From positions 1-64,000 of the forward strand of contig NZ_WEZT01000005.1 of the NCBI RefSeq assembly GCF_009863985.1: a stretch of DNA of 64,000 bases, written 5' to 3'. The DNA comes from Furfurilactobacillus milii (GTDB lineage Bacteria > Bacillota > Bacilli > Lactobacillales > Lactobacillaceae). The translations under genes and the position numbers were made by a program. The notes below the pieces were generated by a model. It saw only the letters and a list, made by a program, of their open reading frames with translations. It ran no database searches and was not told the DNA's origin. Shown one piece after another: positions 8,123 through 27,962 of this stretch (position 1 is the stretch's first letter; the number at the start of each line of letters is the position of its first letter).

Positions 8123-8322
8123 AATGCGCCTCCTCGTTCTTCTTAGCGTAAGGGTAACACATTGCGACGGGTAAAAAGGAATATTTGAATGAAAATTATC
8201 CATTTGATTAGTTTAAATGGGATTTGCGAACGCTGATCTACACGAACAGTGGTAAATTGAAAGAAAGTTCTTAAATAGCCGAATTCGATTTTTCTTCAAG
8301 GGAAAGGGTCATTTATTATTCA

Positions 8323-9174
8323 ATGGAAAAGCAAGCGAGCAATGTTTTAAGTACACTCATTATTCAAGATTTTACCGCTCTTGGGCAGATGTCCATGACG
8401 TCCGCCTTGACGGTAAGCCAATCGATGAATATTTTGACGGCGTCTTTGCCTGTTCAAATGTTGTCAACACAAACAGAAGGATTTGGTCAACCTCACAGAG
8501 AAATAATGGCTGGTTGGCTGGAACAAGTTTGGCATCATTGGGATATCAATGACATCAATTCATTTACCTCGACGCTTATTGGGTATTTAGGAACAAATGA
8601 GCTGACCCAACTAGTGAATAGGGAAATTAAGCAACATCACAACCAAAACATCATTGTCGATCCAGCGATGGCGGATCAGGGCAAACTCTATCCATCTCTG
8701 ACGAAAAGTTACGTTGACGAGATGAGACAGTTAATGAGTGGTGCGCAAATTGCTTTGCCTAACATCACCGAACTGGGTCTGTTGTCAGAAAGCGATGTAG
8801 AAATGAACCGATCGGATGACAAATTACGACAGGCGTTGAAACGTTGCCAAAGTTTTGCTCCTAACTGTCAGGTTATTGTAACAGGAGTCAAAAAAGGCAG
8901 CGCGATTGGTTGTGCTTGGGTTAGTGGCAATGAAATCGAGTGGGTCGGTAAAAACATGATCAAAGGTCACTTTTTCGGTACCGGTGATTTGTTTAGTGCA
9001 ACCTTTAATGTACTGAAACTTAGGTCGCCCAAGCTTGATACGGAACAGCTAGTTTCAGAAGCGATGGCGGTTGTTTACACAGCAATCCAAGAAACATCAG
9101 CCCTTCCGACCACCCAGTGGAGGTTAGGTCTTCAGCTTAAAGAGGCAATTTCACTATTGATGAGTTTTGAGTAA
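8323..9174 (+). CDS. PfkB-family kinase, pyridoxamine/pyridoxal kinase-like
   Basis: The 283-residue protein has LIIQDFTALGQMSMTSALTVSQSMNILTASLP at the N-terminus, the substrate side of pyridoxal-kinase-type PfkB enzymes. DPAMADQGKLYP and ALPNITELGLL follow, and then the anion-hole motif GTGDLFSA near residue 223, whose Asp is the catalytic base. It probably phosphorylates pyridoxamine or a related B6 vitamer to the PLP precursor. PLP is needed by the nearby ornithine decarboxylase, a suggestive but unproven link. The ribosome site before ATG 8323 is weak (GGGAAAGGG about 15 bases away). Confidence 0.8.
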   Translation: MEKQASNVLSTLIIQDFTALGQMSMTSALTVSQSMNILTASLPVQMLSTQTEGFGQPHREIMAGWLEQVWHHWDINDINSFTSTLIGYLGTNELTQLVNREIKQHHNQNIIVDPAMADQGKLYPSLTKSYVDEMRQLMSGAQIALPNITELGLLSESDVEMNRSDDKLRQALKRCQSFAPNCQVIVTGVKKGSAIGCAWVSGNEIEWVGKNMIKGHFFGTGDLFSATFNVLKLRSPKLDTEQLVSEAMAVVYTAIQETSALPTTQWRLGLQLKEAISLLMSFE

Positions 9175-9322
9175 AATCTATTAGTAAAAAGAATGATGCC
9201 GAGTACAAAAGCTGAGCAGGTTCTATTAAAGGGCTTACATTTCACTATGCTTTTATTGCCACTTGGCTTATGCTATGTAAAGTGACGAATAAAAGAGTTA
9301 TTTATGAAGAGTAGGGTAAATT

Positions 9323-10324
9323 ATGTCTAAGAAAACGACGATAACTGATATTGCAAATGAGGCAGGCATTTCGCCAACAACTGTTTCGCAGATTCTTAAT
9401 GGTAAGGGTGAGCGCTTTAGTGCCACGACACGGCAAAAAGTGCTCGGTCTCCAAAAAAAGATGGGCTATCACAATACGGGGAATGATAAGCCATTTGAAT
9501 CAAAAGTGACGGTTGGAATGATCGTGCCAAGCCTGGATAATCCGTATTACCGTGAATTGATCCATGGTGTTCAGGATGGCTTGGTGTCACAGTTTGCAGA
9601 ATTGTCAGTGGAATTTTCAGAAAATTCTGAGGGCATCGGATATCATATTCATGAATTAAGCGAACGACCAGTAGATGCAATTATCGTTGCAGGAGATAAT
9701 ATGGATCTTGCTTTTGTGCAAACGCTACTGGCCAATACTGGTCTGCCTAGCATCATCATGGATCCGCAACAGGACAACGAGTCTTCTGTGGCCATTAATG
9801 AACTTGAAGCCGGCAGTAAATCGGCCGAATATTTACTTGATAATGGACACAGAAAAATTGCCTTGCTAATGAAGGCAGGAAATAGTGAAAGTAAACTGCA
9901 TCGGATCACAGGCTTTTCAAATGGTTTGAAAGAATATCATTTGGATTTAGACCCAACATTATTTTTGGAGCAGCCTGATGATTCTAAAGTAAGTGGTTTT
10001 AATTCAGCCAAACAGGTTATTGATAGCGGTGCAACCGCAGTTTTTGCTTTCTCTGATGAGCTCGCTGTTGGATTGAATCGTGGTCTCCTTGCTCATGGCA
10101 AACGTGTGCCAGAAGATATCTCTATCCTTGGCTTTGATGATATTGAAATTACGCGCTATGTCCAACCAGAATTATCGACGGTTCATCAACCAATTCAAGA
10201 AATGGGCGAAAAACTCGTGGAAATATTATTCGCCAAAAAAAGTGACGATGAATTTACACTGAATTCAGATGAACGACTCTTTTCAGTTGTTCTGAAAAAA
10301 CGTGGAAGCATTAAACATATCTAA
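9323..10324 (+). CDS. LacI-family transcriptional regulator
   Basis: The 333-residue protein has the LacI helix-turn-helix at residues 4-50 (TTITDIANEAGISPTTVSQILNG) and a periplasmic-binding-like ligand domain (VTVGMIVPSLDNPYYRELIHG, FAFSDELAVGLNRGL, ISILGFDDIEITRYVQPELSTV). It normally binds a sugar-like or purine-like effector. It precedes odc-potE in the same direction. A LacI-type operator (GAAAACGTTTAC, 10519-10530) lies 96 bases before the odc start, so control of the amine operon is a reasonable inference. Alternatively the site serves CcpA. Ends at its own terminator. Confidence 0.9.
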   Translation: MSKKTTITDIANEAGISPTTVSQILNGKGERFSATTRQKVLGLQKKMGYHNTGNDKPFESKVTVGMIVPSLDNPYYRELIHGVQDGLVSQFAELSVEFSENSEGIGYHIHELSERPVDAIIVAGDNMDLAFVQTLLANTGLPSIIMDPQQDNESSVAINELEAGSKSAEYLLDNGHRKIALLMKAGNSESKLHRITGFSNGLKEYHLDLDPTLFLEQPDDSKVSGFNSAKQVIDSGATAVFAFSDELAVGLNRGLLAHGKRVPEDISILGFDDIEITRYVQPELSTVHQPIQEMGEKLVEILFAKKSDDEFTLNSDERLFSVVLKKRGSIKHI

Positions 10325-10350
10325 TTGAATCCATAAAAAAAGATAAAGTA

Positions 10351-10385
10351 AGACAATCAATTGTGATAATTGATTGTCTTTTTTT
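10351..10385 (+). terminator. Terminator of the LacI-type regulator gene
   Basis: Perfect 12-bp stem AGACAATCAATT / AATTGATTGTCT and a T7 run. Confidence 0.92.
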
Positions 10386-10401
10386 GTGTCCATTTGTCTA
10401 G

Positions 10402-10540
10402 GTAAAAAAAACGTAAAATTATAAAATGCTAAGAAAATCGCAAAAAAGATGCGAATTAGTAGGCGTAATAGGGGTGCTAAACTAGACAAAAAATGAGCAA
10501 TGTAAAAAAAACGTAAAAGAAAACGTTTACAAATTCGCAT
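10402..10540 (+). promoter_or_regulatory. Repeat-rich control region of odc-potE with a cre/LacI-type operator
   Basis: The 240-base gap before odc contains a perfect 17-base direct repeat, GTAAAAAAAACGTAAAA, at 10402-10418 and 10502-10518, exactly 100 bases apart. A perfect 9-base inverted repeat (ATGCGAATT 10449-10457, AATTCGCAT 10532-10540) overlaps it. GAAAACGTTTAC at 10519-10530 follows the second direct repeat immediately and fits a LacI-family/CcpA operator. The spacing would allow looping between two regulator sites. Confidence 0.6.
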
Positions 10541-10625
10541 TGTAAATGCAAAAAACGGGTAGTAAAAATATAGCCGTGGCAAGTTTTACTTGTTCTTTAC
10601 CAACAATATTTTTAGGAGGTACGAC

Positions 10626-12803
10626 ATGGATAAGCTCAAAATTGCGTCAACGGAAAAGGCCATGAACTTTTTTGAAACAGACCGTGAAATTGTGTCTGCA
10701 ACAGAAACTGACTTTGTTGACGTCGCGGCTGTAGTGGTCATGGATGAAGACACATCTGTTGTTGAAGCGGCAAATGCAACAAAATTTTGGATTCCCGTTT
10801 TTGTTATTTCTGACGATAGTTCCAAGATTGACGGTTCCACGATGGAAAAGATTTATCACATCTTAGATCTCAAGAATCAATATGACCATCAGTTGTATAA
10901 CCGTGAAATTGAGGCAGCGGCCTCAAAATATGAAGACGGCGTTTTGCCACCATTCTTCAAGGAATTAAAGGCTTACGTTGAACGCGGAAACATCCAATTT
11001 GATTGTCCTGGACATCAAGGGGGGCAATATTTCCGTAAGCATCCAGCAGGTCGTCAGTTCTATGATTTCTTTGGCGAAAATGTCTTTCGTTCAGATATCT
11101 GTAACGCCGATGTTGACCTAGGTGACTTGTTAATTCATGAAGGCCCAGCGATGGACGCCGAAAAACATGCGGCACAAGTATTCAATGCTGACAAGACGTA
11201 TTTCGTTATGAACGGGACGACGACATCAAATAATATTGCCATTACTGCCGCCGTTGCGCCGGATGATTTAGTCTTATTTGATCGTAATAACCATAAATCT
11301 GTCTACAATGCAGCATTGGTTAAAGACGGTGGCCGTCCGGTTTACTTAGAAACCTCACGAGACCCATACGGTTTTATCGGTGGTATTTATTCCCGCGATT
11401 TTGACGAGGATTATATCCGTAAACAGGCTGCAAAAGTGGATCCAGAAAAGGCTAAGCAAAAACGGCCATTCCGTTTAGCTGTTATTCAGTTAGGTACTTA
11501 TGACGGCACTATTTATAATGCCAAACAAGTTGTCGAACGCATTGGCCACTTATGTGACTACATTCTTTTTGACTCTGCATGGGTCGGTTACGAGCAATTT
11601 ATTCCAATGATGCGTGATTCTTCACCATTGTTACTTGATCTGGGACCTGATGATCCTGGTATCTTGGTTACCCAATCAACACACAAACAACAGGCTGGTT
11701 TTTCACAAGCATCACAAATTCATAAAAAAGACGCTCACATTAAGGGGCAAAAACGGTACATCGATCATAAACGATTCAACAACGCTTATATGCAATATGC
11801 TTCAACATCCCCATTCTACCCATTGTTTGCAACCTTGGATGTCAACGCCAAGATGCAAGAAGGCGAAGCCGGTAAAAAACTGTGGCACGATGCTTTAGTA
11901 ACATCAGTAAATGCACGTAAAAATTTGATGAAGAATGCCACAATGATTCGTCCGTTTGTGCCACCAGTCGTAAATGGAAAAAACTGGGAAGATGCCGACA
12001 CTGAGGAAATTGTCAGCAACATTGATTACTGGCGTTTTGAAAAGGGTGCAAAATGGCACGCTTTTGATGGCTACGAGGATGATCAATACTTTGTTGATCC
12101 AAACAAATTTATGTTAACAACGCCTGGTATTAATGTTCAGACGGGTGAATATGAAGACTTTGGTATTCCGGCAACAATCTTAGCTAACTACTTGCGTGAA
12201 CACGGGATTATTCCTGAAAAGAACGATTTGAATTCTATTTTGTTCTTGATGACGCCAGCAGAGACACCAGCCAAGATGAATAATTTAGTATCACAAATCG
12301 TTAAGTTTGAATCACTTGTTAAAGCTGATGCGCCACTGGAAGATGTGCTTCCAAACCTGTATGCACAACACAAAGATCGTTACGCGGGTTACACGATTCG
12401 TCAACTCTGCCAAGAGTTACATGACTTCTATAAGGGAAACAATGCTAAGGAATATCAAAAAGAGATGTTCTTGGCCGATTACTTCCCTGAACAAGCAATG
12501 ACGCCATACGAAGCTAACGTTGAGTTATTGCATAACAACGCCAAGCTTGTACCACTGAAAGATATTGAAGGAGAAGTCGCCTTAGAAGGTGCACTTCCAT
12601 ACCCACCTGGTATTTTCTGTGTTGTTCCAGGTGAAAAATGGAGCAAGGTTGCCCAGACCTACTTCTTAATCTTGGAGGAAGGGATTAACCGTTTCCCAGG
12701 GTTTGCGCCTGAAATTCAAGGTGTCTATTTCGAGAATGAAAATGGACAGACTACCGCATACGGGTATGTCTACGATCCTAAGTCAGAAAACAAGGGTGAG
12801 TAG
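10626..12803 (+). CDS. odcI: Inducible ornithine decarboxylase (PLP, fold type I)
   Basis: The 725-residue protein matches, from recall, the inducible ornithine decarboxylase of Lactobacillus 30a along its whole length: an N-terminal wing domain (DKLKIASTEKAMNFF), then QFDCPGHQGGQYFRKHPAGRQFYDFFGE, LFDRNNHKSVYNAAL and STHKQQAGFSQ. The PLP-binding lysine is codon 354. The C-terminal domain includes FPGFAPEIQGVYFENENGQTTAYGYVYD. It converts ornithine to putrescine and CO2, consuming a cytoplasmic proton. Start at 10626 follows TAGGAGG; an earlier in-frame ATG at 10590 lacks one. PotE follows after a weak terminator. A biogenic-amine and acid-resistance trait, patchy in lactobacilli and often horizontally acquired. 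Confidence 0.96.
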   Translation: MDKLKIASTEKAMNFFETDREIVSATETDFVDVAAVVVMDEDTSVVEAANATKFWIPVFVISDDSSKIDGSTMEKIYHILDLKNQYDHQLYNREIEAAASKYEDGVLPPFFKELKAYVERGNIQFDCPGHQGGQYFRKHPAGRQFYDFFGENVFRSDICNADVDLGDLLIHEGPAMDAEKHAAQVFNADKTYFVMNGTTTSNNIAITAAVAPDDLVLFDRNNHKSVYNAALVKDGGRPVYLETSRDPYGFIGGIYSRDFDEDYIRKQAAKVDPEKAKQKRPFRLAVIQLGTYDGTIYNAKQVVERIGHLCDYILFDSAWVGYEQFIPMMRDSSPLLLDLGPDDPGILVTQSTHKQQAGFSQASQIHKKDAHIKGQKRYIDHKRFNNAYMQYASTSPFYPLFATLDVNAKMQEGEAGKKLWHDALVTSVNARKNLMKNATMIRPFVPPVVNGKNWEDADTEEIVSNIDYWRFEKGAKWHAFDGYEDDQYFVDPNKFMLTTPGINVQTGEYEDFGIPATILANYLREHGIIPEKNDLNSILFLMTPAETPAKMNNLVSQIVKFESLVKADAPLEDVLPNLYAQHKDRYAGYTIRQLCQELHDFYKGNNAKEYQKEMFLADYFPEQAMTPYEANVELLHNNAKLVPLKDIEGEVALEGALPYPPGIFCVVPGEKWSKVAQTYFLILEEGINRFPGFAPEIQGVYFENENGQTTAYGYVYDPKSENKGE

Positions 12804-12813
12804 TTCCATTCAA

Positions 12814-12845
12814 CGTGGTGGACGTCATGTCTACCGCGCTTTTTT
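12814..12845 (+). terminator. Intra-operon terminator/attenuator between odc and potE
   Basis: A 10-bp stem (12814-12823 with 12829-12838) including two G-U pairs is followed by six T. Its moderate strength suggests partial read-through, so odc would be made in excess of potE. Confidence 0.65.
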
Positions 12846-12878
12846 ATAAATTTCAGAAAAACGGATAGAGGTAAAATC

Positions 12879-14195
12879 ATGGCCCAGGAAAAGAAAAAGA
12901 TGAGTGTGGTTCAGCTCACAATTATTACGGCCATTAACATGATGGGTTCAGGAATTATCATGCTGCCAACCAATTTAGCACAGGTTGGTACGATGTCGAT
13001 ATTGTCTTGGATCGTTACTGCTGGTGGTGCAATGTGTTTGGCCTATGCATTCTCAAGAGCAGGGATGTATACCAGAAATTCAGGTGGTATGGGTGGTTAT
13101 GCTCAGTATTCCTACGGCAAGGCAGGCTCGTTCATGGCCAACTATACGTACGGTGTTTCACTTGTGATTGCCAATGCGGCGATTGCAATTTCTGCCGTTG
13201 GTTACTTTGATGTTTTATTCCATTTGCACATGTCACCAGTTGGCGTTGCCTTGGCCACAATTTTTACACTTTGGTTGGCTACAGTCATGAACTTTGGTGG
13301 CGCAAGAATTACCGGACAAATCAGCACCTTCACTGTTTGGGGCGTTATCATTCCGGTTGTCGTTATTTCACTAGCCGGCTGGTTCTTCTTTAGTGGTCAC
13401 TTGTATGCAGCATCTTGGAATCCGCACAATATGGGCTTTTTCAAGGGGATTAGCAATTCGATTTCGATTACACTATGGGCGTTTTTAGGCCTAGAATCAG
13501 CTTCCGCAAATATGGATTCTGTTGAAAATCCTAAGAAAAATGTTCCCATTGCTGTTTTAGGCGGAACTATTGGGGCGGCCGTAATGTATATCGTTTCGAC
13601 AAACGTTATGCAGGGGATTGTTCCTAACGCTAAGTTAGCCGCATCAAACGCACCGTTTGGGGTAGCTTTCAGTCAGATGTTTACACCGATGGTTGGGAAC
13701 ATTGTTATGGGACTGATGATTATTTCGTGTTTCGGGTCATTGCTGGGTTGGCAATTTACTATCGCCGAAGTCTTCCGTAGTTCCGCACATGAAGGATATT
13801 TCCCGAAAATATTTGGGAAAACAATTGCCAATGGTACACCTATTATTGGTATGATTATTATTACTGTTTTGCAGTCTTTGTTGGCACTTATGACGATCAG
13901 CCCGTCCCTGTCAAAGCAGTTCACAATTCTAGTAAATTTGGCGGTGGTGACAAATGTTATTCCATACTTGCTATCAATGGGTGCGCTTAAAACAATGCAA
14001 CTCGATGCCAAGGTATCGGCATCTGCACGACGCACGACAAATATCATTGCTACGATTGCATCGCTCTACAGTCTCTATGCATTGTACGCAGTCGGCTTTG
14101 AAGAACTTGCGTATGGTGCACTTGTGACATTTGCAGGTTGGACCTTGTACGGATTTGTGTCACATAAATTTGATTTGTCCAAGACTACGAATTAA
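12879..14195 (+). CDS. potE: Putrescine/ornithine antiporter
   Basis: The 438-residue integral membrane protein of the APC superfamily has about 12 hydrophobic spans. The first carries VQLTIITAINMMGSGIIMLPTNLAQVG, the GSGI motif of amino-acid antiporters. WAFLGLESASANMDSVENPKKNVPIAVLGGT is the typical E-S-A segment near TM6. It exchanges extracellular ornithine for putrescine, so with the decarboxylase it generates proton motive force and raises pH. AGAGG lies seven bases before the ATG. It lies 75 bases after odc, as in other lactobacillar odc clusters. Confidence 0.95.
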   Translation: MAQEKKKMSVVQLTIITAINMMGSGIIMLPTNLAQVGTMSILSWIVTAGGAMCLAYAFSRAGMYTRNSGGMGGYAQYSYGKAGSFMANYTYGVSLVIANAAIAISAVGYFDVLFHLHMSPVGVALATIFTLWLATVMNFGGARITGQISTFTVWGVIIPVVVISLAGWFFFSGHLYAASWNPHNMGFFKGISNSISITLWAFLGLESASANMDSVENPKKNVPIAVLGGTIGAAVMYIVSTNVMQGIVPNAKLAASNAPFGVAFSQMFTPMVGNIVMGLMIISCFGSLLGWQFTIAEVFRSSAHEGYFPKIFGKTIANGTPIIGMIIITVLQSLLALMTISPSLSKQFTILVNLAVVTNVIPYLLSMGALKTMQLDAKVSASARRTTNIIATIASLYSLYALYAVGFEELAYGALVTFAGWTLYGFVSHKFDLSKTTN

Positions 14196-14964: not shown

Positions 14965-16134
14965 TTGGCGGCCAAGTTACAGATCAACCGTATTATGATA
15001 ATGGCATTCTTAGTGAATGCTATTTATAGCATGATCTGGCCGGTCAGCACTTTATATATGCATGACGCCTTCGGCTTATCTCTGCCAATAATAGGTGTCA
15101 TACTAATGTGCTACTCCTTGGCTAATGCGGCTGGAAGCGTGATTTCAGGATATTTATTTGATCGGCTGTCGCATCAAAAGATTTTAATGAGCGGTTTTTA
15201 TTTATTACTGATTGTGTCTTTTATTGGAATGTTTGGTGATGGGTTAGTTGCCTTTATATTATTTTTGGTGCCATTTGGTTTTATTACAGGTTGGTGCTTA
15301 ACAGTTCAATATGCTTTAGTAAGTGATTTACAAGTGCCTAATCCGGAAAATGATTCGAGAAAAAACTTTAATTTGCTCTATTTGGCCGTTAATTTGGGGT
15401 TAGTAGCCGGATCCGGATCGTTAGGATTACTGTATCGGCATAATGAAATTAAAACGTTGATGGCTACTGTAACGGTGATTGCCTTAATTGTGACGCTAAT
15501 TGGACTAGGGACGGGTCAGCCCAATGTTGCAGAGAATGCCAATCAAGTAAGTGTTCATGAGGATGACAGTGAAGGCGAAACGGTCCTCAAAAGAGATGTA
15601 ATCATCCGTGTTTTTATCACCTTATTTTTATTTTGGATCGTGTATGTACAGTGGATGACCAATTTTTCCGTCTATTTTACAAGCTTGGGCTATTCTGCTG
15701 GGTTTTACAGTCATGTTTGGGTGATTAATGGCATCGGAATCACACTTATTCAAGTGTTTTTACTTCGATTCGCGCACTTTTTTAAAACATCAATTGCGCA
15801 GTCCAGATTTGGTATTTTCTTCTTGGTGCTTTCGTTTGGTTGCTTACTTGCTAGTACCAATAAACTATGGTTATTAGTGGCGGCCGTATTTTTAACAATT
15901 GGTGAAGCGCTTTTTGTGCCAGCTGCGCCAGTTGTTGTGGATCAAAATTCGCCAGTGAAAGTTAAGGGACGCAATCAGGGCCTAGTGAACGTGTTTTCGT
16001 CTATTGGGAAAGCAGTTGGTCCCGCTTTAGGAGGAGTGGTCATTGTGAATGGTGGTTACCAAATGCTGTTTTTGATGGCAATATTGTTGCTATTATTTTC
16101 AGAAGTTTTGCTTTTGAATTTTAAAAGGAAATAA
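14965..16134 (+). CDS. MFS transporter
   Basis: The 389-residue integral membrane protein has about 12 hydrophobic helices. The first half includes AFGLSLPIIGVILMCYSLANAAGSVISGYLFDRLSHQK, which carries the MFS loop 2-3 signature (GYLFDRLSHQK). The second half ends VFSSIGKAVGPALGGVVIVNGGYQMLF. It looks like a drug-efflux type. I choose TTG at 14965 because GAGGAG lies eight bases upstream; a GTG nine bases earlier overlaps the ribosome site. The NimA-like gene starts ten bases after its stop with its own AGGAGG, so the two form an operon, perhaps for resistance to a nitro or quinone compound. Confidence 0.85.
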   Translation: MAAKLQINRIMIMAFLVNAIYSMIWPVSTLYMHDAFGLSLPIIGVILMCYSLANAAGSVISGYLFDRLSHQKILMSGFYLLLIVSFIGMFGDGLVAFILFLVPFGFITGWCLTVQYALVSDLQVPNPENDSRKNFNLLYLAVNLGLVAGSGSLGLLYRHNEIKTLMATVTVIALIVTLIGLGTGQPNVAENANQVSVHEDDSEGETVLKRDVIIRVFITLFLFWIVYVQWMTNFSVYFTSLGYSAGFYSHVWVINGIGITLIQVFLLRFAHFFKTSIAQSRFGIFFLVLSFGCLLASTNKLWLLVAAVFLTIGEALFVPAAPVVVDQNSPVKVKGRNQGLVNVFSSIGKAVGPALGGVVIVNGGYQMLFLMAILLLLFSEVLLLNFKRK

Positions 16135-17769: not shown

Positions 17770-17792
17770 GGATTAAAATAAAACAATCCTGT

Positions 17793-18044: not shown

Positions 18045-19124
18045 ATGAGCATTGCGAAGGCCCTTGAGGCTACGTTCACAAACGTCTCGATTATTAGTTC
18101 GATAACATCGACCGTTTTTATCATTTTGTTAGGTTTTTATTTACGCAAACGCGGCACCTTTGGTGAAACGTTTGGGAAAATTTTGTCAAAAGTTGTTTTG
18201 TCGGTTGCACTACCAGCTTTAGCGTTCAATTCATTTATGCAGCCAATCAGTCATGAAACTTTTACACAGGGTCTGAATGTGCTGATCTGGGGTATTTTAA
18301 TCTATATCATCCTAATCTTCGTAACGCCGTTTTCGTATACGAAGTTTCCTAAGGATAAGCAAGAAACATTAGCTATATTAACAACGTTTGGTTCAACAAC
18401 GTTCTTTGGTATTCCAATTGTTGGTGCTGTGTTTGGTGCCAAGGGGATTATGTATAGTTCTATTTTTAACATTGGTTACCGAATTTTCCTATATTCATAT
18501 GCCTACATCAAAATGTCCGGATTGAAGATGGAAGCAAGCAATATCAAAAAAATGTTTTTAAATCCTATCGTTATTGCAACATTTGCTGGCCTGATTTTAT
18601 GGATGATCCAAGACTTCATGCCAATGGTTGCAGTTAAGCAAGCCGTAAATGGCGTAATTGCACCAAATGCACCAGCCATCAACGTGGCTTTCTATCGGAT
18701 TGACCAAACTGCACTTTGGTTGTTCAAACCACTGCAGTATTTGGGTAATTTGGCATCACCATTGGCTTGGCTTTCAATCGGTGCAACATTAGGTTCGATT
18801 TCCATGAAGGATGCAGCTTCTGACAAAGCCTCATGGTATTACAGTTTTAACAAGGTTATCTTGGTTCCTTTATTGAACTTAGTGCTGTTATTTATCCTAA
18901 CGATTACTCACATTTTGCCAGTTAGTTACGTTGCCTTGGCAACCGTTATTATCATGATGGCAACGCCAACGGCCTCCGTAGCTTCGGCATACGCGATTAG
19001 TTTTGATCGGGATGCTGTGTTGGCGTCAAATGCATCGTTGATTTCAACGATTTGTGCCGTTGTTGCGACACCTATCTGGATCGCCTTGCTAGAGGTACTG
19101 AATCAGGTTGGAATTTTTAAATAA
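18045..19124 (+). CDS. AEC-family permease (malate/organic acid carrier-like)
   Basis: The 359-residue protein has about ten hydrophobic helices. The first half contains VVLSVALPALAFNSFMQPIS and TTFGSTTFFGIPIVGAVFG, signatures of the auxin efflux carrier/MleP family. The second half ends ATVIIMMATPTASVASAYAISFDRDAVLASNASLISTI, the inverted-repeat counterpart. In lactic acid bacteria this family carries malate, citrate or other 2-hydroxy acids. TTGGAGG lies seven bases before the ATG. A 2-hydroxyacid dehydrogenase follows and a CitA/CitB-class sensor pair lies beyond, consistent with organic acid uptake. Confidence 0.88.
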   Translation: MSIAKALEATFTNVSIISSITSTVFIILLGFYLRKRGTFGETFGKILSKVVLSVALPALAFNSFMQPISHETFTQGLNVLIWGILIYIILIFVTPFSYTKFPKDKQETLAILTTFGSTTFFGIPIVGAVFGAKGIMYSSIFNIGYRIFLYSYAYIKMSGLKMEASNIKKMFLNPIVIATFAGLILWMIQDFMPMVAVKQAVNGVIAPNAPAINVAFYRIDQTALWLFKPLQYLGNLASPLAWLSIGATLGSISMKDAASDKASWYYSFNKVILVPLLNLVLLFILTITHILPVSYVALATVIIMMATPTASVASAYAISFDRDAVLASNASLISTICAVVATPIWIALLEVLNQVGIFK

Positions 19125-19158
19125 TGACGTTCTTTGATTAAGGTTGAGGTGGATAATA

Positions 19159-20157
19159 ATGTTTAAAATTACAGCATATGGTGTTCGTTCAAACGAAGTG
19201 TCGTATTTCAACGATTTAAATAAAAATCAGTATGAATTAAACTTAATAGGCGATTTGTTGACCCATGAGAATGTCGAAACTGCTAGGGGTTCAGATGCCG
19301 TATTATTACGTGCCAACTGTGTGGCCGATGCCACAAATTTGGCTAAGTTTAATGAATGGGGCATTAAATATGTCTTCACTCGGACGGTTGGTTTTAATCA
19401 CATTGACCTGAAGGCAGCAGCTAGTTATAACATGAAAGTGGCACGAGTCCCAGCATACTCACCATATGCCGTGGCAGAATTAGCGATGACAGTGGGGATG
19501 ATGTCATTGCGTCACACGACATTGGCCACGAGCCGTGCTGAAGCGGGTGACTTTACGGTCGCTCCTGCATTATTTTCCCGTGAAGTGCACAGTAGTACGG
19601 TTGGAATTATTGGTACGGGAAAAATTGGCGCGACGGAAGCGAGTTTGTATAAAGGTATGGGTGCAAAAGTACTGGGTTACGATCCTTACCCTTCGGATTT
19701 TGCGCGTCAATTTGTTACCTTTGTTGAGCTTGACGAACTTTTGGCGCAATCAGATATTGTCTCGATTCATGTGCCTTATTTCCCAGGTCAAAATGAAAAT
19801 ATGGTTGATGAAGACTTTTTGAAAAAAATGAAGAATGACGCGGTTTTGGTTAATACTGCGCGTGGTGAGCTGGTGGATCACGCTGCTGTCCTGCAAGCAT
19901 TACAAACCGACACACTTGGTAGCTTTGCCACTGACGTTTTACCAGATGAAAAATTAATTTTTGGTCATCAGTTTAGTGGTAAATTACCAAACGAAATCGT
20001 CGAAAGTCTCCGTGAACTTTATCCTCGCGTCTTAATGACGCCACATATGGGTTCATATACCAAACCGGCATTGACTGATATGATTGCTGTTAGCTATCAG
20101 AACTTTGAACAAGTATTAGCTAACGGTCATACCGATAATGACGTGAAGTTAGATTAA
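19159..20157 (+). CDS. D-2-hydroxyacid dehydrogenase (D-lactate/D-hydroxyisocaproate type)
   Basis: The 332-residue protein has the NAD-binding motif VGIIGTGKIGATEA at about 147-160, preceded by YAVAELAMTVGMM. The catalytic Arg lies in LVNTARGELVDH, an acidic residue in FATDVLPDE, and the catalytic His in LMTPHMGSYT. Length and layout fit D-LDH and D-HicDH of lactobacilli. It interconverts 2-oxo acids and D-2-hydroxy acids. TTGAGG lies about nine bases before ATG 19159; an in-frame start 15 bases earlier overlaps this site. It is probably co-transcribed with the permease 35 bases upstream. Confidence 0.9.
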   Translation: MFKITAYGVRSNEVSYFNDLNKNQYELNLIGDLLTHENVETARGSDAVLLRANCVADATNLAKFNEWGIKYVFTRTVGFNHIDLKAAASYNMKVARVPAYSPYAVAELAMTVGMMSLRHTTLATSRAEAGDFTVAPALFSREVHSSTVGIIGTGKIGATEASLYKGMGAKVLGYDPYPSDFARQFVTFVELDELLAQSDIVSIHVPYFPGQNENMVDEDFLKKMKNDAVLVNTARGELVDHAAVLQALQTDTLGSFATDVLPDEKLIFGHQFSGKLPNEIVESLRELYPRVLMTPHMGSYTKPALTDMIAVSYQNFEQVLANGHTDNDVKLD

Positions 20158-20171
20158 AAATAGCGCATACG

Positions 20172-20213
20172 AAAAGCGGCCACACCAAACTAAAATTGGT
20201 GGGCCGTTTTTTC
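20172..20213 (+). terminator. Terminator of the permease-dehydrogenase operon
   Basis: Stem CGGCC-A-CACCAA / TTGGTG-GGCCG with a T6 run. Confidence 0.92.
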
Positions 20214-20263
20214 ATCGCTAGTTACGGCGACAAGAGGGTACGAAATCGACTCAAAGAAATTAT

Positions 20264-20950
20264 TTAGTTCACGAATTGGTAAACGGTTAAAGGACGTCCA
20301 ACTGCTAAGTATTTAATGCTGGAAGATAGTTGATGTGTGTCGATTAAATAGTCTAAATATTTTTTTGTTGAAATTCGGGATAGCTTGGCCGCCTGTGCAG
20401 CATCTTGAACCGAAAAGGGTGCTTGTAAAGGTTGAATCGCTGTTAGTACACGTTCTAGTGACAATCGAGACAATCCCTTGGGCAGTGTCTGTGGCAATTG
20501 AGAGGATTGTGAGGAGGGAGTTGTAAATAATTGATCTAAGTCCTTTTGTGCCAGGGGACCCGTATTTTTAAGTGATTGGTGTATCTGCAAGAATTTGGTC
20601 ACTGATTGTTCAAAACGATCAAATGTAAAAGGCTTGATTAGGTAGTCGAGGACACCGTAGTCGATAGCTGCCTTAACATGGTCCGTATCATTTGCGGCCG
20701 TTAACATAATCACTTGGGGATGTATTTCAAGGCGCATTAACTCTGTCAAAACCTCACTGCCGGACAGCTTGGGCATATAAACGTCAAGCAACACGAGGTC
20801 CACTGGCTGTTGCTTTAAAATCGACAATGCGTGAGCGCCATTGTCGGTCTGTGTGAGACTTAGCTGGGCTGATGGAATAATTCTTTTTAGATATTGCTGA
20901 TTAATGGCACTGACCATGGGATCGTCTTCCACAATTAAAACGTTCATCAT
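20264..20950 (-). CDS. CitB/DcuR/MalR-class response regulator
   Basis: The 228-residue protein has a receiver domain (MNVLIVEDDPMVSAIN; phosphoacceptor Asp in DLVLLDVYMPKLSG; Lys in YLIKPFTFDRF) and a C-terminal DNA-binding domain with FSVQDAAQAAKLSRISTKKYLDYL, as in the DcuR/CitB/MaeR group. I start it at the ATG one base after the sensor kinase stop; earlier in-frame ATGs lie inside that gene. The long linker fits this class. It probably controls the neighbouring permease, malic enzyme or both in response to citrate or malate. Ends convergent with the dehydrogenase gene. Confidence 0.88.
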   Translation of the reverse strand: MMNVLIVEDDPMVSAINQQYLKRIIPSAQLSLTQTDNGAHALSILKQQPVDLVLLDVYMPKLSGSEVLTELMRLEIHPQVIMLTAANDTDHVKAAIDYGVLDYLIKPFTFDRFEQSVTKFLQIHQSLKNTGPLAQKDLDQLFTTPSSQSSQLPQTLPKGLSRLSLERVLTAIQPLQAPFSVQDAAQAAKLSRISTKKYLDYLIDTHQLSSSIKYLAVGRPLTVYQFVN

Positions 20951-20951
20951 A

Positions 20952-22580
20952 TTAGTCATCGCCCTCCGATTTTTGATTATATAGTGGTAATTCAACGTAA
21001 AAAGTAGTGCCTTGTGGGCGATTATTAGTCACTGACAGGTAGCCATTACGGGCGTCAACGACCTGTTTAACGAGCGCTAAACCGTAACCACGATCTCGTC
21101 CCTTAGTTGAATAGTGTTGCTCAAACATGTGAGCTTTAACTTCTTTTGAAATTCCGCAGCCATTATCTGTTACCTCAATGACCAAGATATTACTTTCATC
21201 GTCATAATTAATTGACAGCGTGATTTCTGATTTAACATTGTCATCGTTATTAACAGCGTCAATTGCGTTATCGATGAGATTTCCCAGGACTTTAATTAGA
21301 TCCACACTTAAGGCTTCTGAAGCGACTTGCTTGGGAAGAAGGCTATCTGGCGTGATAGTAAAGGCGACTTGCTGTTCATGAGCCTGATTTAATTTCCCCA
21401 TGAGAAATCCAGCAACTGCTGGCGATTGGATATGATTGTTGAGGTTTCCGAATTGGGCTTGGTAATCTGCTGACGTATTGGTAATAAATCGTTGAACTTC
21501 ATCATATTGGTGCAATTCGATTAGACCGGAAACGGCCTGAAGTTTATTTAGAAATTCATGTGTTTGTGCGCGAAGGGCCTGAATATATTGTGTTGTTCCG
21601 GCCAATTGGTCGGCTAGTAGTTGATATTCAGAACGATCACGTAATAGTGCCATGCTACCTAGGCGTTTGCCAGCAGAAATCAGTGGACTTGTCGATACAA
21701 TTAATTCTTTAGACTGGACTAATACGGATTCATTAATTGTGCTTTTTGAACCCTTAAACGTCTGCCCAAATAAAGCGTTAAACAGGTCATCATCAAGTGG
21801 ATCACCAATTGTCAGGGTCGGAAATAGTTCATTTGCGATATCGTTTGCTGTGATCAGCCGCCGTTGTTGATCAATTGCGATAAGCCCCTCGGACATACTG
21901 TCATTGATGACAGATAATTCAGTTACCCGTGTAGCGATTTCCTGGGGTTCCATTCCCAATAAGCGCCGACGAATATGGGTTCCTAGCAACCAGGCGGCGA
22001 TGATACCGCTGATCAAGCCCAGTAATGATCCAATGACAATAGGCAACTCGGCGGACCGTGTTTCACTATTGATTGATCTTTCCGTTAAACCGACACAGAC
22101 AATGCCAATTTGTTGATGCCTAGCATTGTAAATGGGGGTAAAAATTCGGTAACCATTTCCTAGCACACCTGTTTCACGGGAAAAATGTGTGTGACCGGTT
22201 AGCGACTTGGTGGCATCGTTTGGGGAACTAAACCGGTGACCAATGACGCGGGTGTCGGGATGTGAGTAACGGATTAAGCGACGGTTCATAACAACAATGA
22301 AATCGACATGAGTGGCTCGTTGAATTCGCTTGGTGTATCTCTGAATGTCGCCATGTGCCGATGGCTGTTTAGTCGTCAAATTATCTTTAACAACCGTACT
22401 TGTGGCAACAATTGTGGCCGTACTACGGATATTTTGCTTAATGTTTCGTTGCTGCGTTTGGACAACGTTGTGTAGTACGAGAAGTGCAGCAATGGACAGG
22501 GAGGTTGCGACTGTTAATAAAACTACTAAAATGATCGTTGTACGTAGCGACCATTTGTGATGGTAAGATTTTTTCTGCAT
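20952..22580 (-). CDS. CitA/DcuS-class sensor histidine kinase
   Basis: The 542-residue protein has TM1 at about residues 13-35, an extracytoplasmic PDC/PAS-like sensor domain (VDFIVVMNRRLIRYSHPD, IGHRFSSPN), and TM2 at about 178-200 (LPIVIGSLLGLISGIIAAWLL). A cytoplasmic PAS (SVINDSMSEGLIAIDQQRRLITAND) follows, then the dimerisation helix with the phosphoacceptor His in RAQTHEFLNKLQ, the N box LGNLIDNAIDAV and the G boxes DNGCGI and GYGLALVK. The RYSHPD and GH motifs are the usual dicarboxylate/tricarboxylate-binding positions in this class. The ligand is probably citrate or malate. The closest known lactobacillar role is MaeKR. Confidence 0.92.
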   Translation of the reverse strand: MQKKSYHHKWSLRTTIILVVLLTVATSLSIAALLVLHNVVQTQQRNIKQNIRSTATIVATSTVVKDNLTTKQPSAHGDIQRYTKRIQRATHVDFIVVMNRRLIRYSHPDTRVIGHRFSSPNDATKSLTGHTHFSRETGVLGNGYRIFTPIYNARHQQIGIVCVGLTERSINSETRSAELPIVIGSLLGLISGIIAAWLLGTHIRRRLLGMEPQEIATRVTELSVINDSMSEGLIAIDQQRRLITANDIANELFPTLTIGDPLDDDLFNALFGQTFKGSKSTINESVLVQSKELIVSTSPLISAGKRLGSMALLRDRSEYQLLADQLAGTTQYIQALRAQTHEFLNKLQAVSGLIELHQYDEVQRFITNTSADYQAQFGNLNNHIQSPAVAGFLMGKLNQAHEQQVAFTITPDSLLPKQVASEALSVDLIKVLGNLIDNAIDAVNNDDNVKSEITLSINYDDESNILVIEVTDNGCGISKEVKAHMFEQHYSTKGRDRGYGLALVKQVVDARNGYLSVTNNRPQGTTFYVELPLYNQKSEGDD

Positions 22581-23294: not shown

Positions 23295-24086
23295 ATGATA
23301 ATAACCACGAGTGATCACGTCAGGTTGGATTATACAGATGAGGGCGAAGGACGGCCGGTTGTTATTCTGACTGGCCTAGGCGGTGCAAAAGAAATTTGGC
23401 GTGCCCAGGTTTCAGCACTAGTTTCAGCTGGCTATCGGGTCATCAATGTGGACGCTCGCAATCAAGGCGCTTCGCAACATACTGCCAAAGGATTAAGAAT
23501 TAGTCGCCACGGTATGGATCTTGCGGAAGTGATCGATAAATTGCACCTCGTAAAGCCTATCTTGCTGGGTAACTCGATGGGCGCAGCAACTATTTTTGCT
23601 TATTTATCACTGTTTGGGGATGCAAACGTCACCGCAGTGATTGATTTAGATCAAAGCCCCAAAATGATTAATGACGCGGACTGGAAGTTTGGGTTTAAAG
23701 ATGTAACTTGGGCGGAGTTTCCAGACTTTTTCAGAATGCCATTGGGACCGTCTACATTTAAGCATATTGACGATGATACGTATCAACTCGTAACGGCTGC
23801 TGCTACCACGCACCCATATGATGCAGCGCTCAACGAACCATTTTTGTTTGATCATGCTTTTGCAGATTGGCGTGATGTGATTCGCCAGTTAAACGTACCA
23901 TTGTTAGTGATGGCGGGTGGCGAATCACCGTACTTTAATCCTGAATTTGCCGCTGTAACGTCTAAGATGGCAGCTCACGGTCAGTCAGTTATTATTCCGA
24001 ATGCTGGTCATATCTTGATGGCAGAACAAAGTGAGGCAACCAATGCGGCATTGTTGAGTTTTCTGGAAAAGCTACCACATGCATGA
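23295..24086 (+). CDS. Alpha/beta hydrolase
   Basis: The 263-residue protein has the alpha/beta hydrolase layout: oxyanion region VVILTGLGGAKEIW, VDARNQGAS, nucleophile elbow GNSMGA (Ser about residue 94) and catalytic His in IIPNAGHILM; the acid is probably in the GGESPYFNPE region. It resembles esterases and C-C hydrolases such as the 3-oxoadipate enol-lactonase group. GGGAGG lies five bases before the ATG. Substrate unknown. Confidence 0.88.
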   Translation: MIITTSDHVRLDYTDEGEGRPVVILTGLGGAKEIWRAQVSALVSAGYRVINVDARNQGASQHTAKGLRISRHGMDLAEVIDKLHLVKPILLGNSMGAATIFAYLSLFGDANVTAVIDLDQSPKMINDADWKFGFKDVTWAEFPDFFRMPLGPSTFKHIDDDTYQLVTAAATTHPYDAALNEPFLFDHAFADWRDVIRQLNVPLLVMAGGESPYFNPEFAAVTSKMAAHGQSVIIPNAGHILMAEQSEATNAALLSFLEKLPHA

Positions 24087-25008: not shown

Positions 25009-25133
25009 TTTGTAGCCCTCCAAGCAAATTATATTAACAGTTTCATTTTACAGACTGATCAATAAAACAACAATCAATTAGCCTTATTGCCGTTTTTAAG
25101 ACTGTTAAAATGTTTCAAAAAAATCCATCAATT

Positions 25134-25161
25134 TTGATATTTTTTAAAAGCGGTGTATATT
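25134..25161 (+). promoter_or_regulatory. Promoter of the malic enzyme gene
   Basis: TTGATA (25134-25139), 16 bases, TATATT (25156-25161), 29 bases before the ATG at 25191. Confidence 0.65.
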
Positions 25162-25190: not shown

Positions 25191-26339
25191 ATGGCGGATC
25201 AATTAGATGACGTATTAAAGTTACATGCTTTACATAATGGGGTTCTTGGCATTGAATCTGAAATGGCGGTTAAAAATCGCTCGGATTTGGGCAAAGCATA
25301 CACACCAGGGGTTGCGACAATTTCAAAGATGTTGGCCAAAGATCCAAGCTTGCGAGACTACTATACGTTAAGCGGCAAGCTGGTAGCCGTGGTTTCTGAT
25401 GGTTCGGCTGTTTTGGGTCTTGGTAATATTGGTCCGGCCGGTGCACTACCGGTTATTGAAGGTAAATCGTTACTATATAAAGACTTAGCGGGTGTTAACG
25501 CTTTGCCATTATCAGTTGCGCAGGTATCCACTGACGAATTCGTCAGCACGATTAAAAATATTGCTGGCAGTTTTGCAGGTATTCATTTAGAGGATATTGC
25601 AGCGCCAAGATGTTTTGAGATTGAAGATCGGTTAAGCAAAGAACTCAACATTCCGGTTTATCATGATGATCAAGAAGGAACTGCTATTGTAGTGATGGCC
25701 GGCCTTTTGAACGCAGCCAAGGTTGTGAATAAATCATTTAACGATTTGCACATTTTGATTAACGGAGCCGGTGCTTCGGGGATTGCGGTTGCTCGATTAC
25801 TGTTTGCTGCTGGCGTGAAACACATTACACTAGCTGACATCCATGGTGTCGTTACACCTGATGATGACCGTTACAACAAATTTCAACGTGGTTTGGCGCG
25901 AGAATTGGGCACACAAACCACTGGCACCACATTGCAAGAAGGTATTAAAGGCCAAGACGTGTTTGTCGGATTATCTGACGCAAACGTGTTAACCGGTGAT
26001 GATGTGCGCAATATGGCCGATCGGCCGATTATTTTTGGCCTGGCCAACCCAGTGCCTGAAATTGATCCAGCAGTTGCTAAAGAGGCCGGTGCAGCGGTCA
26101 TTGCGACGGGTTCTAGTCAATATCCAAATCAGGTCAATAACATTTTGGTCTTTCCTGGATTATATAAGGGACTACTGGCCAGTGGCCTTAAACACGTCAC
26201 GTTTGTTTTAGAAGCAACAACGGCTAAGGCGCTTGCTAGCTTAGTCGAACATCCGACAGTGGATCATATTGTACCAGGCGTCTTCGATGATGGGGTTGTT
26301 CAGACAGTTGCTAAGGCAGTTGTCGATTTTGCGAAATAA
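25191..26339 (+). CDS. mae: NAD(P)-dependent malic enzyme (oxaloacetate-decarboxylating)
   Basis: The 382-residue protein is a short bacterial malic enzyme. The catalytic Tyr lies in LGKAYTPGVATIS and the Lys in GKSLLYKDLAGVNALPL. The metal ligands are in LEDIAAPRCFEIE and YHDDQEGTAIV. The cofactor motif is GAGASGIAVARLL. It converts malate to pyruvate and CO2, and family members in citrate clusters (CitM) decarboxylate oxaloacetate. GAAGGAG lies eight bases before the ATG. citX-citG follow after 180 bases, as in citM-citCDEF-citXG clusters, but here citCDEF are absent. Confidence 0.95.
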   Translation: MADQLDDVLKLHALHNGVLGIESEMAVKNRSDLGKAYTPGVATISKMLAKDPSLRDYYTLSGKLVAVVSDGSAVLGLGNIGPAGALPVIEGKSLLYKDLAGVNALPLSVAQVSTDEFVSTIKNIAGSFAGIHLEDIAAPRCFEIEDRLSKELNIPVYHDDQEGTAIVVMAGLLNAAKVVNKSFNDLHILINGAGASGIAVARLLFAAGVKHITLADIHGVVTPDDDRYNKFQRGLARELGTQTTGTTLQEGIKGQDVFVGLSDANVLTGDDVRNMADRPIIFGLANPVPEIDPAVAKEAGAAVIATGSSQYPNQVNNILVFPGLYKGLLASGLKHVTFVLEATTAKALASLVEHPTVDHIVPGVFDDGVVQTVAKAVVDFAK

Positions 26340-26385
26340 TTCGTGCAGTTAATCCGCTTTTTAAAGTTAAAAGATGCATTAAATT

Positions 26386-26429
26386 TAAAGACCGCTATTG
26401 GTGCAAAAGACGCTAATGGCAGTCTTTTG
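26386..26429 (+). terminator. Probable terminator after malic enzyme
   Basis: An 11-bp stem with one mismatch and one G-U pair (26389-26399 with 26415-26425) runs into TTTTGTT. Confidence 0.55.
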
Positions 26430-26520
26430 TTATTGACAAGTATTAATCGGTGAACAAGACAAAAATGACGGGGAGGCGTAAACTGTTAACCGTAATTTGA
26501 AGAGGAACGGAGAGAAAGTC

Positions 26521-27081
26521 GTGGCAGAAGATATATTTTCAACTGGTGAACCGCAAACAATCGATAATGTATTGGCAAACAAAGATGAACGTGTGTCACT
26601 TCAACAAAGTTTGATTGCCAAATATCCAGGAAGAACAGTGGTTGCTTTAAAAATGAATATTCCCGGACCAATTAAAAATAATGGTGCCTTAGAAAAGTTG
26701 TTTAAAGCTGGCGATGCGCAATTGAGAAGCATGATGACTCAACACCAATATGTCATCATTGATGACGAACATTGGGACCGTCAAACAGGATCCGAAGCGT
26801 TTTATGTCGTTGATATGAAAGCCGATCAGGTCAAAAAATTGGCAGTTTCGTTTGAGGATGAGTTTACACTTGGGCGCTTATTTGATGCCGATGTACTGAT
26901 GGGTGGGGACGGCGGTGCACGAGCATTATCCCGGACTAATTTTGGTTTGCCGGCGCGAACCTGTTTAGTTTGCGGTCGGCCGTCTAAAGATTGTGCGCGT
27001 TCGCGTCGCCACAGCGTGACAGAATTGCAGGCACACATTGCTGACATGTATACGACTTACTTTGGAGGACAGCTGCTATGA
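26521..27081 (+). CDS. citX: Citrate lyase holo-ACP synthase (apo-citrate lyase phosphoribosyl-dephospho-CoA transferase)
   Basis: The 186-residue protein has the CitX signature in its C-terminal third: GGARALSR-x-NFGLPARTCLVC-x-x-x-SKDCARSRRH. It transfers the 2'-(5''-triphosphoribosyl)-3'-dephospho-CoA group to the acyl carrier subunit of citrate lyase (CitD). I choose GTG at 26521, seven bases after GGAGA; a TTG frame start at 26497 has no ribosome site. It overlaps citG by four bases (ATGA). Its usual partners citCDEF are not in the window. Confidence 0.92.
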   Translation: MAEDIFSTGEPQTIDNVLANKDERVSLQQSLIAKYPGRTVVALKMNIPGPIKNNGALEKLFKAGDAQLRSMMTQHQYVIIDDEHWDRQTGSEAFYVVDMKADQVKKLAVSFEDEFTLGRLFDADVLMGGDGGARALSRTNFGLPARTCLVCGRPSKDCARSRRHSVTELQAHIADMYTTYFGGQLL

Positions 27082-27962
27082 CACTTGATTTGAGCGCTCA
27101 ACAGTTGGCGTCAACACTTTCACAAGTAGGTGAACGGGCGCTCCTTTATGAAGTAGCTGTGAATCCAAAGCCTGGCTTAGTCGATCCTGTTTCCGCTGGT
27201 CCCCATCCTGATATGACGGTGTTTACTTTCATTGATAGTGCGACCAGTTTACGGGAATACTTGCACAAATGTGCGCTTGCGGGTCAGCATTTTGAACAAA
27301 CGGATAACGAATTAACCGAACTATTCGCTCAGTTACGGATTTTGGGACAACATGCCGAGCGGACGATGTTTGAAACAACGAACGGTGTTAATACGCATAA
27401 GGGTGCGATTTTTTCATTGGGCGTATTAGTTGCGGCGACAGCGCAGCAACTAACTGTTAATGGCAAATATGCGACAAATGAAGTTATTGCTATTGCCAAA
27501 GAAATGCTTCAAGGATTAACTGAAAATGACTTCAAAAAGATCAAGGCGACTTCACCGGCGTCGCTAACAGCCGGTGAACGTCAATTTCTAAAGTATGGTA
27601 AGGCTGGTATTCGTGGTGAAGCGGAGGCGGGTTTTCCAACTGTGGTTGAACTAGCATTGCCATTTTTACGGCAACGTCAGGGAACAACGATGGAACGTTT
27701 GCTTGATACATTAATGCGTATTGCCGGCAATATGGATGATTCAAATTTAATCAAACGGGCTGGTGACGCAAAAATCACCGATTGGATGCACGTTCAAAGT
27801 AATCATTACTTTGAATTAGGTGGTAGCCGAACATCAGCGGGTCAAGTTTTCTTAAAGCAGCTGAACGAAATATTTTTGTCACGTAATTTGAGTCTCGGTG
27901 GCTCTGCAGATCTGCTTATTTTAACGATTTACTTTGCCCTGTTAGAGGGACAACTTCGTTAA
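27078..27962 (+). CDS. citG: Triphosphoribosyl-dephospho-CoA synthase
   Basis: The 294-residue protein has the CitG/MdcB signatures: YEVAVNPKPGLVDPVSAGPHPDMTVFTF, GVNTHKGAIFSLG, GEAEAGFPTVVELALP and NMDDSNLIKRAG. It makes the citrate lyase prosthetic-group precursor from ATP and dephospho-CoA. Translationally coupled to citX through an ATGA overlap. It is the last gene of the group and ends at a strong bidirectional terminator. With no lyase subunits alongside, it either serves a lyase encoded elsewhere or is a leftover. Confidence 0.94.
   Translation: MTLDLSAQQLASTLSQVGERALLYEVAVNPKPGLVDPVSAGPHPDMTVFTFIDSATSLREYLHKCALAGQHFEQTDNELTELFAQLRILGQHAERTMFETTNGVNTHKGAIFSLGVLVAATAQQLTVNGKYATNEVIAIAKEMLQGLTENDFKKIKATSPASLTAGERQFLKYGKAGIRGEAEAGFPTVVELALPFLRQRQGTTMERLLDTLMRIAGNMDDSNLIKRAGDAKITDWMHVQSNHYFELGGSRTSAGQVFLKQLNEIFLSRNLSLGGSADLLILTIYFALLEGQLR

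Follow-up and report, generated by a model that had tools for sequence, protein, structure and literature searches.

The citrate lyase gene set of Furfurilactobacillus appears to be divided between two genomic sites

The mae, citX and citG genes of Furfurilactobacillus milii make up, with a probability of roughly 0.93, half of a system for citrate fermentation that is split over two places in the genome. They lie in the window, the 64,000-base stretch of contig NZ_WEZT01000005.1 that was analysed, and citCDEF, the genes of the lyase itself, are found on another contig (C35) of the same assembly. This reading draws on gene content, the single copies of the genes, their conserved residues, the arrangement shared by the genus and a promoter motif before mae, all of which were observed directly. 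A first-pass annotation of the window had reported mae, citX and citG without adjoining citCDEF, and the three genes are indeed present, alone, where it placed them. The features concerned are as follows, with coordinates of the window except for the last.

23295 to 24086, plus strand: ABhyd, an alpha/beta hydrolase with a GNSMG motif, which has relatives in the citrate clusters of other genera.
25113 to 25157, plus strand: CitI-type promoter/operator motif upstream of mae, the best matrix match in the window (30.1 bits).
25191 to 26339, plus strand: mae (citM), malic enzyme family, above the Pfam cut-offs of PF00390 and PF03949.
26387 to 26427, plus strand: terminator-like hairpin with a T-rich tract, -19.0 kcal/mol, z -4.3.
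26521 to 27081, plus strand: citX, citrate lyase holo-ACP synthase, above the cut-offs of PF03802 and TIGR03124.
27078 to 27962, plus strand: citG, triphosphoribosyl-dephospho-CoA synthase, above the cut-offs of PF01874 and TIGR03125.
8218 to 12045 of locus L004, contig C35: citCDEF.

All three of mae, citX and citG are intact. The mae product is a putative oxaloacetate decarboxylase or malic enzyme, a probable assignment from its sequence. It passes no NCBIfam cut-off in addition to those of its Pfam domains, shares 58-68% identity with its counterparts in intact citrate clusters, matches malic enzymes among solved structures when compared by sequence, and is the sole malic enzyme match in a search of its genome. 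CitX scores 172 bits with TIGR03124 (cut-off 105) and 179 bits with PF03802 (cut-off 25), and is narrowly below the subfamily model PRK01392 (148 bits vs 158). CitG scores 309 bits with TIGR03125 (cut-off 272) and also passes PRK01237, and it falls below the narrower CitG model PRK10096 (188 bits vs 477). Genome searches gave a single match each for CitX and CitG.

The start of citX is either the GTG at 26521, with which an ATG is aligned in the relative in locus L044, or an upstream TTG at 26497; its end overlaps citG by 4 bases. The gap between mae and citX, previously put at 180 bases, is 181 bases from the GTG and 157 from the TTG. No citC, citD, citE or citF was found near these genes in the window, and tblastn with the four C35 proteins found no pieces of them in the mae-citX gap. 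Near the malic enzyme, positions 18045 to 22580 encode an AEC-type transporter, a D-hydroxyacid dehydrogenase and a DcuS/DcuR-like two-component system that is below NCBIfam cut-offs; this region is possibly a dicarboxylate-sensing unit.

The assembly, with a completeness rating of 99.97%, consists of 60 contigs that total 2,376,586 bases. On contig C35 the row is intact: a divergent citI, then citC, citD, citE and citF, followed by a gene for a LysR-type regulator. CitF and CitD were identified by Pfam searches, whilst citI, citC, citE and the flanking genes were named by reading their sequences. Nearby genes are those for a lactate/malate dehydrogenase, a fumarase, a DASS-type transporter and a fumarate-reductase-like flavoprotein. 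There is one CitF in the genome, and it is this one. CitD retains the AGTLESSD motif, in which the modified serine is presumably located. Departures from near-invariant columns, in a comparison that left out genome G286, number 0 of 76 in citC, 1 of 30 in citD, 0 of 140 in citE and 0 of 258 in citF on C35, and 7 of 135 in mae, 2 of 27 in citX and 0 of 60 in citG in the window. The lyase and maturation gene set of Furfurilactobacillus thus looks, from its sequence, complete and fairly ordinary. The same contig also carries, at 17773 to 19890 of L004, a UbiD/UbiX-like decarboxylase pair (read from sequence) and a LysR-type regulator gene.

The first-pass annotation had offered a lyase encoded elsewhere as one of its explanations and had named a genome search for citC, citD, citE and citF as the check that would tell a split cluster from orphans. 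The search returned the complete set, intact and in the same assembly, and the genes are therefore part of a split cluster. Its alternative, that the lyase genes were deleted and left citX and citG as orphans, is very improbable. The site does resemble a cluster from which citCDEF has been cut out, and such a state seems to be present in another genome of the family (G154, described below), but here citCDEF is intact elsewhere in the genome, CitF is present in all six Furfurilactobacillus genomes among the matches listed, and conserved residues have been kept. It had also been suggested that CitX and CitG serve another acyl carrier protein, of which that of malonate decarboxylase would be an example. 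MdcB and CitG are homologous, and CitG reaches 227 bits with the MdcB model, but this is below the cut-off of 282, CitG passes TIGR03125, and the CitD-type carrier family (PF06857) has one match in the genome, which is citD. A single carrier leaves one evident target for CitX and CitG, and the chance that they modify a different one is equally slight.

All six assemblies of the genus are drafts. With contigs joined end to end, the minimum distance from mae-citXG to citCDEF in the window's genome is 45 kb. The corresponding minima are 54 kb in G118, 128 kb in G092, 133 kb in G024 and 316 kb in G061; in G142, which is fragmented, the minimum is only 1.5 kb.

The named relatives of the window are F. 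rossiae DSM 15814 and two F. milii strains, in which CitX is 93-95% identical, so the window belongs to Furfurilactobacillus. Across 301 scanned genomes of the family, CitX was found in 131 and CitF in 126, all of the latter with CitX. The two genes are adjacent (<1 kb, one strand) in 110 of the 126, with a median gap of 107 bases between profile matches. They share a contig without being adjacent in five, and are on different contigs in 11, including all six of the Furfurilactobacillus genomes among the matches listed. These same six share the order ABhyd-h85-OsmC-mae-citX, followed by citG in five; the contig of G142 ends within citX and so lacks the citG that follows. The single-locus citM-citCDEFXG arrangement was encountered in none of the six.

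The regions around citF were surveyed in 55 of the 120 CitF-containing genomes outside the genus, hand-chosen to span genera. Five whose clusters are of a distant type (G012, G033, G038, G049 and G119) were set aside, leaving 50. Within the citF region mae is present in 40 of these, citX in 45, citG in 42 and citI in 42. The order mae-citCDEF-citXG, earlier assumed to be usual, is the common one in the surveyed regions, more fully ABhyd-citI(divergent)-mae-citCDEF-citX-citG, and in many genomes the hydrolase comes after citG. The end of mae is a median of 48 bases before citC (n=38, range -39 to 2240). In none of the 37 surveyed regions holding both genes is mae within 1 kb of citX, making this neighbourhood peculiar to Furfurilactobacillus in this survey.

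Five other genomes resemble Furfurilactobacillus in having cofactor genes and lyase genes on separate contigs. In G130 and G214 citX is apart and citG is with the lyase; in G209 citX is apart and citG was seen in neither region; in G266 ABhyd-citG-citX-citC is apart from mae-citDEF; and in G286 a distant CitX is apart from the lyase genes. Since their break points differ, these look like separate events.

Some genomes of the family have citX or a relative of it and no CitF match. In G154 (L121, 6797 to 9883) citI, citX, citG and the hydrolase gene are together in a region without mae or citCDEF, and the locus is a probable deletion remnant. The citX of G285 (L122, 8490 to 8921) is in pieces with stop codons and is a decaying remnant. 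Distant CitX-like genes, 29-34% identical to that of the window, are present in G300 (L118), G003 (L119) and G228 (L120).

Of the 50 surveyed genomes, 36, including those of loci L056, L060 and L062, have a relative of ABhyd (32-61% identical) in the citF region, and the hydrolase gene adjoins citG in G266. Sequence matches to solved structures are only to generic bromoperoxidase/esterase relatives. The hydrolase may be a thioesterase or a citrate lyase deacetylase; the literature found on citrate lyase deacetylase, judged by title, includes none on lactic acid bacteria.

The sequence upstream of mae was noticed by eye to resemble CitI promoters before a 45-bp matrix was built. The matrix was trained on 35 intergenic regions from other genera (33 citI-mae and 2 citI-citC), excluding sequences of the genus, and both strands were scanned. 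Its best match in the window ends 33 bases before mae and overlaps a promoter-like pair, TTGATA-16-TATATT, at 25134 to 25161. The next non-overlapping match, at 759, has 10.5 bits. Sixty random 64-kb sequences, made with the neighbour frequencies of the whole window and not those of A+T-rich promoters, gave maxima with a mean of 10.2 bits (sd 3.2, largest 19.1), all below the 30.1 bits of the mae site.

The top match is directly upstream of mae in all six loci of the genus. The scores are 30.1, 25.1, 31.4, 30.1, 23.3 (strand ambiguous; 22.6 on the mae strand) and, in G024, 15.3 bits, which is within chance on score alone, the random maximum being 19.1. On contigs with the lyase genes, the citI-citC gap is the top motif site in all five genus loci that hold the gap, at 13.0, 14.3, 13.6 and 14.3 bits in four, within chance on score alone, and at 29.4 bits in G024. 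In Weissella, CitI binds two operators in the citI-citM intergenic region, and citrate enhances this binding (Martin et al., as described in the review PMC10798043). The motif before mae and the weaker one between citI and citC suggest that CitI, encoded at the C35 site, would probably activate both sites in the presence of citrate. One CitI regulon over both sites, with CitI predicted to bind at each, is likely.

A search with a consensus for catabolite (cre) sites gave none at the cit genes. Matches to this consensus are at 10518, 41435 and 41477 in the window and at 15728 and 16844 in L004, with neither total above chance. The match at 15728 of L004 is just upstream of the fumarate-reductase-like gene. 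That at 10518 is palindromic and lies beside genes at 10518 to 14195 for a probable ornithine-type decarboxylase and then an amino acid antiporter, both identified by reading their translations.

None of 200 shuffled sequences was as stable as the hairpin between mae and citX, and the corresponding hairpin of locus L046 is similar (-18.1 kcal/mol, z -4.2). The mae-citX gaps of L044 and L048 contain different sequences that, by eye, appear able to form hairpins. A pattern scan also finds the hairpin of the window, as one of 5 terminator-like sites vs 5.0 in shuffles. Because of this hairpin, control of citXG by CitI is not assured, and the matrix scan found no CitI motif upstream of citX. Together these suggest that citXG may be transcribed from a promoter of its own or depend on read-through.

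As a single system, the two sites would work as follows. CitG would make triphosphoribosyl-dephospho-CoA, and CitX would put this cofactor, in trans, on the conserved serine of CitD, where it would be acetylated by CitC. The predicted citrate lyase would then convert citrate to acetate and oxaloacetate, and the malic-enzyme-family protein would be expected to convert oxaloacetate (or malate) to pyruvate. The split is probably a single event that predates the divergence of the Furfurilactobacillus species sampled.

Duplication, or import, of the whole citrate cluster and then loss of complementary genes from the two copies is a plausible origin of the split, at somewhat less than even odds. One copy would have kept ldh-DASS-citI-citCDEF-LysR and the other ABhyd-mae-citXG. 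Placed on the common order ABhyd-citI-mae-citCDEF-citXG-LysR, the genes kept at the two sites interleave, and parts that are complementary in this way cannot both be produced by a single cut-and-paste. In addition, the citI-mae promoter motif occurs upstream of mae and, judged by position, between citI and citC as well, and in L049 the sequence between citI and citC can be aligned with that between citI and mae in L056 (74% over 70 bases, E 4e-6). Weighing against duplication, the motif copy between citI and citC is weak in four of five genomes, and searches of intergenic stretches, using tblastn with the window and C35 proteins and blastn with seven cluster loci as targets, turned up no decayed remnants of the lost cit genes. 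In L044 the mae-citX gap reads N over about half its length. The only non-gene match below E 0.001 in these searches was the promoter sequence shared by L049 and L056.

Trees also show no clear separate origin of the two halves. Furfurilactobacillus forms a single clade in the citCDEF tree (61 genomes) and in the mae-citXG tree (56 genomes). In the mae-citXG tree it is beside the same 11 genomes, with support of 46, and the AU test does not reject the wider grouping given by citCDEF (p-AU 0.198). Neither a tree built from mae alone (46 rows) nor one of the hydrolase (43 rows) says anything firm on origin. Import of one half from another lineage was considered and rejected; the placements differ slightly between the trees, and the AU test did not reject their agreement. 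Stepwise relocation or transfer of cit genes is a possible route. Duplication with reciprocal loss most simply accounts for the complementary loci and the two motifs. A fuller version of it is a little more tentative: a complete cluster was duplicated and reciprocally lost, leaving two co-regulated half-operons with inherited CitI promoters, and the hairpin uncouples cofactor supply from oxaloacetate removal. If this is true, two half-operons, each with an inherited CitI promoter, have been kept through the genus.

Citrate genes are all together in Weissella paramesenteroides (citMCDEFGRP), Lactococcus lactis (citMCDEFXG) and Oenococcus oeni (mae-cit), as reviewed in PMC10798043. Furfurilactobacillus shares with these the same genes, the presumed chemistry, a SorC-family CitI and an A+T-rich promoter before citM/mae, but differs in having mae-citXG and a hydrolase gene at a second site. 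In Weissella citI is divergent from citM, and no separate citX is listed for it (PMC10798043). In Enterococcus faecalis the order is oadHDB-citCDEFX-oadA-citMG (PMC3198936). There citM adjoins citG; however, there is one locus, citX is with the lyase genes, and the regulator is CitO rather than CitI.

The closest parallel in kind is with citWX of Klebsiella pneumoniae, where a cofactor-transfer gene also lies at a second genomic place and serves CitD in trans (PMC2735749). This citX, which is important for the citrate lyase of that species, is found with citW, citY and citZ (PMC2735749). In Klebsiella citX alone is displaced from citCDEFG, accompanied by the transporter gene citW and the divergent two-component system citYZ (PMC2735749), whereas in Furfurilactobacillus citX, citG and mae are displaced together. 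With this case and the other splits in the family known, the Furfurilactobacillus loci are best seen as an unusual arrangement of a well-known system. The split is absent from the titles and abstract openings of the literature found on citrate genes of lactobacilli, including PMC9858393 and PMC10798043.

For this genus, orphan cofactor genes and the lack of a citrate lyase are a natural misreading of the mae-citXG site, which is now corrected. If both halves answer to CitI, Furfurilactobacillus would provide a small, testable case of the division of an operon in which coordination has been kept.
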